Assembly (NCBI GenBank): GCA_002686595.1
Contig: NYXZ01000014.1
Location: 1-36,536, forward strand
Reading direction: 5' to 3'
Origin: Planctomycetota bacterium
GTDB taxonomy: Bacteria; Planctomycetota; UBA1135; GCA-002686595
Length of the DNA stretch: 36,536 nucleotides
Shown here in pieces: positions 33,008 through 36,536 of this stretch; position 1 is the stretch's first letter; each line of letters begins with the position of its first letter. The notes under the pieces are model-generated. The model was not told the DNA's origin. It did no database searches and saw only the letters and a list, made by a program, of their open reading frames with translations. The translations under genes were made by a program, and so were the position numbers.

Positions 33008-34246
33008 ATGCAGGACATTATCTTCAGTGAGAAGGCCCGTGAGCTGCGGGCCCTCGCCCGCCAAATCGCCGACGAACATGTGCGCCCCAAGGCCGCCCAG
33101 TACGACAAGGCCCAGGAGTACAACTGGGAAGCGAAGGAAGCGGTGGCCCAGGCTGGCCTGTTCCGGACCTGGATCCCGGAGGAGTACGGCGGGCACGGCG
33201 CCGGAGTGCTGGCCCTGGCCGGCGTGACCGAGGAACTGGCCAAGGCCGATTCCGGTTTTGGCGTGGCCTTTGCGGTGAATGCCCTGGGCTCCTTCCCGAT
33301 CATCCTCGGCGGCACGGAGGAGCAGAAGAAGAGATGGCTGCCCCAAGTGGCCTCTGGTGAGAAGATGGTGGCCTTTTGCCTCTCGGAGAAATTCGCCGGT
33401 TCCGATGCCAGTGGCTTGGCCGTGCGCGCCTATGAAGACGGCGACGAGTGGGTCATTTGCGGGGAGAAGAAGTGGACAACCAACGGGGGCGTGGCGGACA
33501 TCTACTCCGTTTTCTGTGTCACCGATCCGGACAGCAAATCGCGGCGCATCAGCGCCATTGTGGTGGAGAAGGGAACGCCGGGGTTTGAGGTAAAGAAGGT
33601 CGAAGACAAGATGGGGATTCGGACGGTGCCCGTGGTCGAGACGCACTTCGACAACGTGCGCGTACCCAAGGACAACCTGATCGGTGGGCGCGCGGGACTG
33701 GGCTTCCGGCATGCCATGGCGACCCTGGACTATGCCCGCCCGGGAGTAGCGGCCCAGGCGGTGGGGGCGGCCCAGGGCGCTCTCAACCTGGCCAACGTTT
33801 ACGCCAATCGCCGCCAGCAGTTCGGCAAGCCCATCTCCGGCCACCAAATGGTGACCAAGATGCTGGCGGACATGGCCATGAAAACCGAGGCGGCGCGTTG
33901 GCTGGTGTATGCAGCGGCGGCCTCCATCGACTCCACTGGTCCGGGTCCGACGGCGAGCAAGATGGCCGCCCTGGCCAAGTGCTATGCCACGGATGTGGCC
34001 ATGGATGTGGCCACGGATGCGGTGCAGGTCTTCGGGGGCTACGGCTTCATGGAGGACTATCCCATCGCCAAGTACTTCCGCGATGCGAAGATCCTCCAGA
34101 TCTACGAGGGCACCAACCAGGTGCAGCGCATGGTCATCGGGCGCCATCTGATACGTGAGGCAGCGGAGCTCGAGCCCCTGCAGGAGTTCATTCCCCAGGA
34201 GACGCAGGAGGAATACGCCCCCAAAGGGGTGGCGGCGGATGCCTGA
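33008..34246 (+). CDS. Acyl-CoA dehydrogenase
   Basis: FAD enzyme that introduces the alpha,beta double bond in acyl-CoA during fatty-acid or branched-chain amino-acid breakdown. 412 aa. The N-terminal helical domain ('LRALARQIADEHVRPKAAQYD'), the middle beta domain with the signature 'AFCLSEKFAGSDASGLAVRA' and 'GEKKWTTNGGVADIYSVF', and the C-terminal helical domain with 'RRQQFGKPISGHQMV' and 'VFGGYGFMEDYPIAKYFRDAKILQIYEGTNQVQRMVIGRHL' are all present. The Glu of IYEGT is the expected catalytic base. The track start at 32735 runs through the upstream methyltransferase in another frame and is rejected; the ATG at 33008 begins at the family's normal N-terminus. No Shine-Dalgarno site is evident, and the substrate chain is not predictable here. 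Confidence 0.93.
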   Translation: MQDIIFSEKARELRALARQIADEHVRPKAAQYDKAQEYNWEAKEAVAQAGLFRTWIPEEYGGHGAGVLALAGVTEELAKADSGFGVAFAVNALGSFPIILGGTEEQKKRWLPQVASGEKMVAFCLSEKFAGSDASGLAVRAYEDGDEWVICGEKKWTTNGGVADIYSVFCVTDPDSKSRRISAIVVEKGTPGFEVKKVEDKMGIRTVPVVETHFDNVRVPKDNLIGGRAGLGFRHAMATLDYARPGVAAQAVGAAQGALNLANVYANRRQQFGKPISGHQMVTKMLADMAMKTEAARWLVYAAAASIDSTGPGPTASKMAALAKCYATDVAMDVATDAVQVFGGYGFMEDYPIAKYFRDAKILQIYEGTNQVQRMVIGRHLIREAAELEPLQEFIPQETQEEYAPKGVAADA

Positions 34247-34539
34247 GGGCCGGCGCCCGGGCCGGGATTGGGCCGGGGCACCGGAGGTGGTGAGCGAGGC
34301 CAGCGGGCGCTAAAAGCCCCCGTGAGGGCCAAGGACCGATTATTAGGCCAGCAGGTTGCTTTCTTGGCCCCGTGTTGTACCCTTACGCAAGCGTAAGAGT
34401 ACAGCTGCGATGGGCTTTGCGGCGCGATGAGCGCGGCTCGAACTTGGGAATCTCAAAGTTCGGTCGGTGGGCATTTACGGCTCAGGCACGGTGCTGACCG
34501 GTGCCTCAGGATGCCCCCCCTCACCCCGGAAAGCTGGCC
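34247..34539. other. 293-bp leader/intergenic region rich in dyads before the sigma factor
   Basis: No supported ORF. Elements in order: GGGCCAAG/CTTGGCCC perfect 8-bp stem with a 29-base loop (34326-34370); a 28-bp near-perfect palindrome (34376-34403); GAACTT/AAGTTC stem (34440-34461); and a strong hairpin AGGCACGGT-GCTG-ACC(G)GTGCCT (34484-34506). The last lies 33 bases before the chosen start. This suggests transcriptional and possibly post-transcriptional control of the sigma factor. Confidence 0.5.
34376..34403. promoter_or_regulatory. 28-bp operator-like palindrome upstream of the sigma factor
   Basis: Half-sites TGTAC-n-CTTACGC and GCGTAAG-n-GTACA flank a central AA; only one position per arm fails to pair. 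A TTGTAC (34375-34380) and a TACAGC (34400-34405) at its edges could be -35 and -10 elements (19-base spacer), so a bound dimer would block the promoter. The regulator is unknown; TetR-family sites often have this form. Confidence 0.55.
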
Positions 34540-35748
34540 ATGCGCAGGCGATTTTGCCGCGTGACCATCACCATGAACTACGAGGGAAACAGTTTGAGAC
34601 AAACAGTCATCAGCCACGGGGACCTGGATGACAGGATTCGGGTCCTGGTCGAAAAAACCAGTGATGCAGGAGATGTTAGCTTGGCCGATCTGGCCAGGGA
34701 AATCGGCGCCGCGGGAGCGCAGTTAGAGGTGCGGGGGCATTGGCAGTGGCGCGACGAAGAGCGCAAGCAGCGTCCCTCGACCACGGCTTCAGTGGAGGAA
34801 CAGCTGCGCCAGGAAGTCGATCGCATCCGGCCCCTGTCACGGGAGGAAGAACAGGGTCTGGCCCGTCGCATGGAGGTCGCCCGCTTGCTCCTGGCCCAGG
34901 CCTTGGACAGTGAGAACCTCACCCACGAGGACCTGGAAGCGGCTTGGTGCTTTGTGCCCGAGCGCGGTTGGGAACAGTCCTGCGAGGAGTGCTCTGTGCC
35001 CCCCTTGGTTTGCCGCCGTTGGAAGGAGCTCCATGCCCTGCGCACGGAAATGGTGGAGCGCAACCTCTATCTCATTCTGCTCAATGTCGACCGCTATGCG
35101 CGCAATGCCGCCCAACGCTTGGATTTGATTCAGGAGGGTTCAATTGCCCTGTTCCGGGCAGCGGACGGTTTCGAATGGCGCCGGGGATTGCTTTTCCGCA
35201 CCTATGCTGTCCATTGGCTGAACCAGGCCTTCCGCAGCTTCTTGTACAACTTCGGGCGCACGATTCGAGTGCCGGTGTACTTGCAGAAGGCCAGCAAGCA
35301 TGTGCAGCGGGCCGCAGAGAAACTGGGTCCTGATCCCAGCGTCGATGCCATTGCCGAGTGCACTGGATTGACGGAGAGCGTGGTCGAATCGACGCTCAAG
35401 GCCCAACGCCCCACCTACTCTCTGGACCGTGCCCTGATCGATGGCGAAGAGGGTCACGACCTGGCCAATGCCATTGGGTATGAGGCCGAAGATGGGCCCT
35501 ATGACACATCCCTGGAAGACACCTCCCTGGAGGATGGGCTGCGCGGGGCCCTGGGCCGCTTGAATGAGCGTGAGCGCTTTGTGCTCGCCATGCGCTTCGG
35601 CTTGGAACGGGAACGGGATCACACCCTGGCGGAGGTGGCCCGGGAAATCGGTGTCAGCCTGGAGCGCGTGCGCCAAATCCAGATGCGCGCCATTGCCAAG
35701 CTGGACACGCCCTCCCTGCGCCGTGCCGTGGCCCCCTTTCTGAGTTAG
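34540..35748 (+). CDS. Sigma-70 family RNA polymerase sigma factor (group 2-like) with Cys-bearing insertion
   Basis: 402 aa from the ATG at 34540, which has GGAAAG 6 bases upstream; ATG 34573 is the alternative, and the track's GTG 34501 falls in a hairpin. Region 1.2 is 'IRPLSREEEQGLARRMEVARLLL'. Region 2 is 'YLILLNVDRYARNAAQRLDLIQEGSIALFRAADGFEWRRGLLFRTYAVHWLNQAFRSFLY', followed by 'GRTIRVPVYL', region 3 'DPSVDAIAECTGLTESVV' and region 4 'LNERERFVLAMRFGLERERDHTLAEVAREIGVSLERVRQIQMRAIAKL'. Between 1.2 and 2.1 lies a ~60-residue segment with 'SCEECSVPPLVC'. In 2.4 the consensus 'YATWWIRQAI' reads YAVHWLNQAF, so -10 recognition may differ from that of the housekeeping sigma. No anti-sigma gene is adjacent. 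Confidence 0.9.
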   Translation: MRRRFCRVTITMNYEGNSLRQTVISHGDLDDRIRVLVEKTSDAGDVSLADLAREIGAAGAQLEVRGHWQWRDEERKQRPSTTASVEEQLRQEVDRIRPLSREEEQGLARRMEVARLLLAQALDSENLTHEDLEAAWCFVPERGWEQSCEECSVPPLVCRRWKELHALRTEMVERNLYLILLNVDRYARNAAQRLDLIQEGSIALFRAADGFEWRRGLLFRTYAVHWLNQAFRSFLYNFGRTIRVPVYLQKASKHVQRAAEKLGPDPSVDAIAECTGLTESVVESTLKAQRPTYSLDRALIDGEEGHDLANAIGYEAEDGPYDTSLEDTSLEDGLRGALGRLNERERFVLAMRFGLERERDHTLAEVAREIGVSLERVRQIQMRAIAKLDTPSLRRAVAPFLS

Positions 35749-35895: not shown

Positions 35896-36536
35896 ATGGT
35901 CACACAGGAAGCAACAAACGAGAGCGTCGGCAGTGGGGAGCTCGGGCGCAAGCCCGCCTGGCTCAAGGTCCAGTTGCCCGCTGGCCAGGAGTACAAGAGG
36001 CTCAAGGATCTGGTGGCAGAGCTCGGTCTCAACACGGTCTGTGAAAAGGCACGCTGTCCCAACTTGGGAGAGTGTTGGCGTGGCTCCTCCGCCACCATGA
36101 CGCTCATGGTGCTCGGCGATGTGTGCACACGGCGCTGCCGCTTCTGTGCCGTGGAGACTGTCGAACGCGGCCGTGCCATTGACCCGCAGGAACCGAACAA
36201 TGTGGGCCGCGCCGTGGCGCGCCTGAACCTCTCCTATGTGGTCATTACCAGCGTTGATCGCGACGATCTGGTGGATGGCGGAGCCGCGCATTACGCGGCC
36301 TGCGTGGAGTCCGTGCGCGCCCACGCGCCGCGTACCGCCCACGCGCCGCGGACTATTGTGGAGACGCTGATCCCTGACTACCAGGGCGCGCAGCTGGAGA
36401 CGCTAATGGCTGCGCGACCGGCGGTCCTAGGGCACAATGTCGAGGTCGTCGATCGCCTGCAGCGCAAGGTGCGCGACGCGCGCTGTTCCCTAGAACGTTC
36501 GCTGGAAACCCTGCGCGGCGCCCGTGAACTGGCTCC
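35896..36536 (+). CDS. lipA: Lipoyl synthase LipA, 5' part (cut by window end)
   Basis: LipA is a radical SAM enzyme that inserts two sulfurs into octanoyl groups on E2/GcvH proteins. 213 residues are visible. The auxiliary-cluster motif is 'VCEKARCPNLGECW' (CX4CX5C) and the radical SAM motif is 'CTRRCRFC' (CX3CX2C), preceded by 'TLMVLGDV'. Then come 'YVVITSVDRDDLVDGGAAHYAAC', 'IPDYQG' and 'LGHNVEVVDRLQRKVRD', all in family order. The frame is open to the last base, so the ORF track missed it. ATG 35896 gives a normal N-terminus but has no Shine-Dalgarno site. An in-frame 18-base tandem duplication encodes AHAPRT twice just before the 'IVETLIPDY' strand; the usual family sequence has a single short turn there. 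Confidence 0.94.
   Translation, partial: MVTQEATNESVGSGELGRKPAWLKVQLPAGQEYKRLKDLVAELGLNTVCEKARCPNLGECWRGSSATMTLMVLGDVCTRRCRFCAVETVERGRAIDPQEPNNVGRAVARLNLSYVVITSVDRDDLVDGGAAHYAACVESVRAHAPRTAHAPRTIVETLIPDYQGAQLETLMAARPAVLGHNVEVVDRLQRKVRDARCSLERSLETLRGARELA
36321..36356 (+). repeat. In-frame 18-bp tandem duplication inside lipA
   Basis: GCCCACGCGCCGCGTACC is followed directly by a copy differing at three bases near the end (GCCCACGCGCCGCGGACT), adding one extra AHAPRT unit to the protein. The reading frame is preserved. Confidence 0.75.

Follow-up and report, generated by a model that had tools for sequence, protein, structure and literature searches.

What is known of iron-sulfur homeostasis has come mainly from the regulators IscR and SufR; in the type-1 motif of IscR, the half-sites are separated by seven bases, not six. 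Classical activators of the MerR family have their operator within an overlong spacer of 19-20 bp between the -35 and -10 elements, and the [2Fe-2S] cysteine motif of SoxR is CX2CXCX5C. To our knowledge, very little is known about regulation in the Planctomycetota. The SoxR box, CCTCAAGTTAACTTGAGG, is an 18-bp dyad (PMC4411124).

Here we describe a palindrome from a planctomycete genome bin (G000; 3.38 Mb in 150 contigs, 86% complete), found in a stretch of 36,536 nt that was analysed as a whole and is hereafter called the window. Judged from sequence comparison, and with a probability that we put at about 0.8, the palindrome serves as the operator for a conserved regulator of the MerR family, which governs an iron-sulfur and thiol regulon that includes an alternative sigma factor. 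The motif, its conservation, its set of targets, the cysteines of the regulator and the co-occurrence of the motif with MerR were computed directly.

The palindrome and its setting

A preliminary description of this DNA had pointed to a nearly fully symmetrical palindrome in a comparatively AT-rich region, following an acyl-CoA dehydrogenase gene and preceding an alternative sigma factor. The position was exact: TGTACCCTTACGCAAGCGTAAGAGTACA occupies the 28 bp at 34376-34403, with a central AA and 12 of 13 arm pairs matching, a symmetry far beyond chance. No second palindrome of the same geometry was found in the window; a first-order simulation produced on average 0.05 per window with exactly this geometry and 0.56 with gaps of 0-8, and for the intergenic region by itself, gaps of 0-8 allowed, it gave p = 0.005. 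The genes on both sides were as described (dehydrogenase end at 34246; sigma-factor start between 34501 and 34594), and the region was mildly AT-rich (GC 54-58%, compared with 65% for the window). The core, CTTACGCNNGCGTAAG, occurred only once in the 3.38-Mb genome, and no exact copy was found in the other 391 genomes of the phylum searched (392 in all). At first this suggested a chance palindrome standing alone; the lack of exact repeats is explained by the degeneracy of the motif described below. At the other sites of that motif, the outer TGT and ACA positions were not conserved.

The operator lies 132 bp beyond the stop codon of the dehydrogenase gene, which is probably not its target. Several start codons are possible for the sigma factor (GTG 34501, ATG 34540, ATG 34573 or TTG 34594; stop 35748); with the 34543 reading, orthologs align from about residue 20 onwards. 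The protein reached no RpoD-type NCBIfam equivalog cut-off; its nearest named relatives belong to Planctomycetota such as Poly30, Pla86 and Pla163, of which the cultured Pla86 also encodes the MerR protein described below. The lipA gene that follows may be co-transcribed with it. At least 19 of the 36 family genomes preserve the order acyl-CoA dehydrogenase then sigma factor, and several have lipA downstream as well. Features of the locus and the motif sites of the genome are collected in Table 1. The strongest hairpin of the window, at 1355-1389, has perfectly matching 15-bp arms (GCCGGGTGCCACCGT / ACGGTGGCACCCGGC) around a 5-nt loop and is probably terminator-like.

Table 1. Features around the palindrome, and high-scoring motif sites of the genome
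Feature	Position	Strand	Remarks
Acyl-CoA dehydrogenase	33008..34246	+	Pfam Acyl-CoA_dh_1/M/N; start inferred at MQDIIF
28-bp palindrome	34376..34403	none	outer 3 bp per side (TGT/ACA) outside conserved motif
22-bp operator ACCCTTACGCAAGCGTAAGAGT, predicted MerR-family site	34379..34400	none	symmetric; best PWM match in window
RpoD-like alternative sigma factor, downstream of operator	34573..35748	+	Pfam Sigma70_r2/r3/r4
lipA, lipoyl synthase (radical SAM, iron-sulfur enzyme)	35896..36534	+	147 bp 3' of sigma factor; continues past window end
Motif site before sigma factor	contig C19		one of five in genome
Motif site before B12-binding radical-SAM gene	contig C11		one of five in genome
Motif site 32 bp before merR	contig C12		one of five in genome
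Motif site 139 bp before IscR-like rrf2, then cysteine desulfurase (iscS)	contig C21		one of five in genome
Motif site before bacilliredoxin/'disulphide isomerase' gene	contig C136		one of five in genome

A motif shared by merR and sigma-factor upstream regions

Two imperfect copies of the palindrome were located upstream of MerR-family genes, one in this genome (C12:9168) and one, with one mismatch, in a relative (G036). For this reason, a symmetric motif search, not seeded by the window, was run on sequences taken upstream of 26 orthologs of the one MerR gene in this genome. The resulting motif, AncCTnaCgctagcGtnAGgnT, had a log-likelihood of 103, compared with 41-53 in 12 dinucleotide-shuffled sets. 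When the position weight matrix (PWM) was built without this genome and G036, the window site scored 21.6 bits and the next place in the window 10.7. A search of 42 sigma-ortholog upstream regions, with the window left out, yielded AatCTnACGTnnACGTnAGatT; minus-strand loci were in the wrong orientation in this set, which could have contributed nothing but noise. This is the same motif as that found before merR (the columns correlate at 0.77 in register and at no more than 0.07 when offset by 1-4), and its PWM, likewise lacking the window, gave the window site 18.0 bits against 5.3 for the next place. The window site therefore ranked first in the window with either matrix. The consensus is the symmetric 22-bp sequence AnCCTnACGynnrCGTnAGGnT, of which this genome has five copies; at the score of the window site, 0.013 matches would be expected per genome by chance.

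That an operator stands upstream of the alternative sigma factor, as had been proposed, is strongly supported. Among the 36 family genomes, with all loci read in the correct orientation, about 15 had a clear site, at a distance of 164-369 bp upstream of the aligned sigma start; the site was also present in a genome of another family (G039). It was absent in the remaining family genomes, so that control of the sigma factor would be frequent but not universal. For the sigma sites alone the link to MerR was weak (p = 0.06), and two incomplete bins (G022 and G019) kept the sigma site with no MerR detected.

Genes preceded by the motif

The five sites in this genome scored 21.7-24.4 bits, each expected at most 0.05 times by chance; the next match scored 15.2. 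Many low-scoring matches in the genome (ACGCCGACGGCGGCGTCAGGCT and similar strings) were set aside as repeats or chance occurrences. Near-identical strings resembling ACGCCGACGGCGGCGTCAGGCT occur on six contigs of the genome (C20, C25, C39, C79, C123 and C124) and represent a repeat, not the operator. In relatives, the motif also preceded genes for Mrp, for iron-sulfur assembly proteins of the SufT/DUF59 type, for ferredoxin and for rhodanese proteins that carry a GGCSSC motif, as well as for a protein of the lysine-2,3-aminomutase type and more radical-SAM enzymes. Targets were named by inspection of neighbouring genes after pattern searches of this genome and its relatives, with Pfam confirmation for representatives. 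Distinct sites with scores of 19.5 or more numbered 34, and 32 of these lay within 480 bp before an iron-sulfur, radical-SAM or thiol gene, merR, rrf2 or the sigma gene; about one third to half of the 32 are the very locus that supplied the representative protein, and the rest match the representative of another genome. None of 34 matches scoring below 15 preceded such a gene. The motif sites thus mark out a predicted iron-sulfur/radical-SAM/thiol regulon, unrecognised before, in Planctomycetota of a little-studied group. Among the high-scoring sites, no fatty-acid or TetR gene was identified as a target, and no efflux genes were among the motif targets.

Some arrangements recur around these sites. 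In G000 and G036, merR is divergent from a gene resembling zinc neutral metallopeptidases, with the operator in the common intergenic region (L131 and L046); in G036, merR is followed by a cysteine desulfurase gene. In several genomes a small protein of about 70 aa with two CxxC pairs (for example, MASLSCITCSNPIQDPP...CPACRDRAL) has its gene on the other side of the operator from rrf2, in divergent orientation (L240:1560-1769, L242, L245 and L184 are examples); it had no Pfam match.

The MerR protein

The genome encodes a single MerR protein (C12:8665-9132; 156 aa), the winged helix-turn-helix of which scored above the Pfam cut-offs (PF13411, 62.1 bits; PF00376, 52.0 bits). An AlphaFold2 model (mean pLDDT 87) has a helix at 82-124 followed by a four-cysteine segment, and its top fold matches in the PDB were MerR-family structures. 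As modelled, the protein would have the dimerisation coiled-coil helix and short effector domain of the family. Among 25 aligned orthologs, C124, C127, C138 and C141 (CX2C-X10-CX2C) were invariant in all 25, and the orthologs share a tail of the form G-x2-LP...AL. The four-cysteine segment is likely to be a metal or iron-sulfur site.

Candidate binders and other explanations

The preliminary description had looked to a second copy near a regulator gene, and related copies do stand before two such genes of this genome, 32 bp from merR and 139 bp from rrf2. Since both are preceded by the motif, either could be the autoregulator. If the IscR-like Rrf2 were the binder, merR would be merely a target in a classical IscR control of isc and iron-sulfur genes; the position of the motif before rrf2-iscS in most genomes, a regulon theme that matches that of IscR and the conserved cysteines of Rrf2 are all in keeping with this. 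The distribution of the two proteins points the other way. Nearly all family genomes retain rrf2, but not MerR. With PWMs whose training had included no rrf2 regions, a site was found before rrf2 in 23 of the 24 MerR-containing genomes, as compared with 2 of the 7 lacking MerR (Fisher p = 0.0007); given that these held-out counts differ with the presence of MerR, the motif tracks MerR and not rrf2. Five genomes (G007, G009, G023, G027 and G029) have kept rrf2, lack MerR and have lost the motif, with scores of at most 3.2 (the 99th percentile of shuffles is 12.3). The two exceptions are G035, where MerR is degenerate, and G033, where none was detected. On the sigma-factor tree the MerR-less genomes were partly clustered, which reduces the losses to few independent events, perhaps two to four. 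The even dyad of 18-22 bp, with six bases between half-sites, also suits the MerR frame and not that of IscR. We therefore consider Rrf2 an unlikely binder; the sequence comparisons favour MerR, which probably fills this role.

Two further explanations concern the palindrome at its own locus. The suggestion that the neighbouring dehydrogenase gene points to a TetR-type regulator, and so to an operator for that gene or for fatty-acid genes, had in its favour the adjacency itself, the palindromic site and the three TetR genes of the genome. The motif analysis did not support it: the site follows the dehydrogenase stop, on the far side from the start of the gene, no fatty-acid gene was found at any of the other motif positions, the regulon is an iron-sulfur one, and the motif is that of the upstream region of merR itself. 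Nothing connects the three TetR genes with the palindrome, and we give this explanation almost no weight. It is also very improbable that the palindrome acts in RNA, as a hairpin or terminator behind the dehydrogenase gene, and not as a DNA operator. The RNA could fold into an inner stem of 6 bp capped by a 4-nt loop, together with an outer stem, and the 91-nt region was more stable than its shuffles (z = -2.25), but there was no U-tract or terminator call, and an Rfam scan returned no match. Moreover, the same symmetric sequence precedes unrelated genes, at rrf2 with a fixed distance to a -10 element, and many of its copies are imperfect as RNA stems.

Promoter geometry and proposed mechanism

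A TANNNT element follows the operator by 35-39 bp in 21 of 22 rrf2 promoters, where 0.87 were expected and at most 5 were obtained in 500 shuffles; in many of these promoters, TANNNT is itself preceded, at about 17 bp, by a TGGC-like element. Both elements, at a fixed distance behind the operator, can be seen at rrf2 loci L276 and L277-L304. They may represent the promoter type of the housekeeping sigma factor or of the regulated one. The TANNNT spacing places the centre of the rrf2 operator at about -60 relative to the presumed transcription start, which, read from sequence, is the position of an upstream activator. The operator is thus found upstream of the promoter, not within the -35/-10 spacer of MerR activators. 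At the window site, the preliminary description had proposed a promoter overlapping the palindrome, which a scan with the sigma-70 consensus did not bear out. No promoter could be placed there, so that activation of the sigma factor is a guess carried over from rrf2.

We infer the binder (MerR), together with its cofactor, its signal and its activating action, as follows. A MerR dimer would bind the 22-bp dyad and govern, as one regulon, the sigma factor (possibly with lipA), the B12-radical-SAM gene, merR itself, rrf2-iscS and the bacilliredoxin gene. The protein would probably sense iron-sulfur, redox or metal status through CX2C-X10-CX2C and turn on iron-sulfur and thiol functions; control of the sigma factor would spread its signal. 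A site upstream of the promoter puts the usual MerR mechanism in question. The sigma factor gains its first functional context, and an exact 22-bp target is now available to experimenters.

Comparison with known systems

In the literature outside subscription journals, we found no MerR regulator of iron-sulfur genes and no such regulon in Planctomycetota. Among named regulators, the closest NCBIfam profiles to this MerR were ZntR (69 bits), CadR, MerR, CueR and SoxR, all far below their cut-offs. ZntR, CadR and CueR resemble it most in profile, the closest PDB sequences being CadR, MerR and CueR, and are also among the closest folds; however, no curated cut-off was reached, both the cysteine layout and the regulon are unlike theirs, and efflux targets are missing.

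The SoxR box shares with the motif the same CCT...AGG in an 18-bp frame, and the two regulators have in common the MerR fold, a C-terminal cysteine site, a redox theme and autoregulation. They differ in the cysteines, CX2C-X10-CX2C in this case (the NCBIfam SoxR profile scored 47 bits against a cut-off of 117), in the regulon, which here comprises iron-sulfur assembly and radical SAM, and in the position of the site, upstream of the promoter at rrf2 but between -35 and -10 for SoxR.

With IscR the likeness is one of regulon, in that the rrf2-iscS operon and iron-sulfur carriers and users are included; the difference is that the predicted binder is MerR, that the IscR-like Rrf2 is itself a target, and that the motif follows MerR, not Rrf2. 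It is conceivable, though we hold it only tentatively, that in this planctomycete family a MerR whose CX2C-X10-CX2C segment is a metal or iron-sulfur site took over the role of IscR, acting as a class-I-like activator from about -60, commanding the IscR homolog and signalling through a dedicated alternative sigma factor. Iron-sulfur homeostasis would then be wired in a new way, and the mode of action would be an unusual one for a MerR protein. With a MerR regulator set over an IscR homolog, iscS, radical-SAM enzymes and a sigma factor, iron-sulfur homeostasis would be achieved by other means than those known from IscR and SufR.
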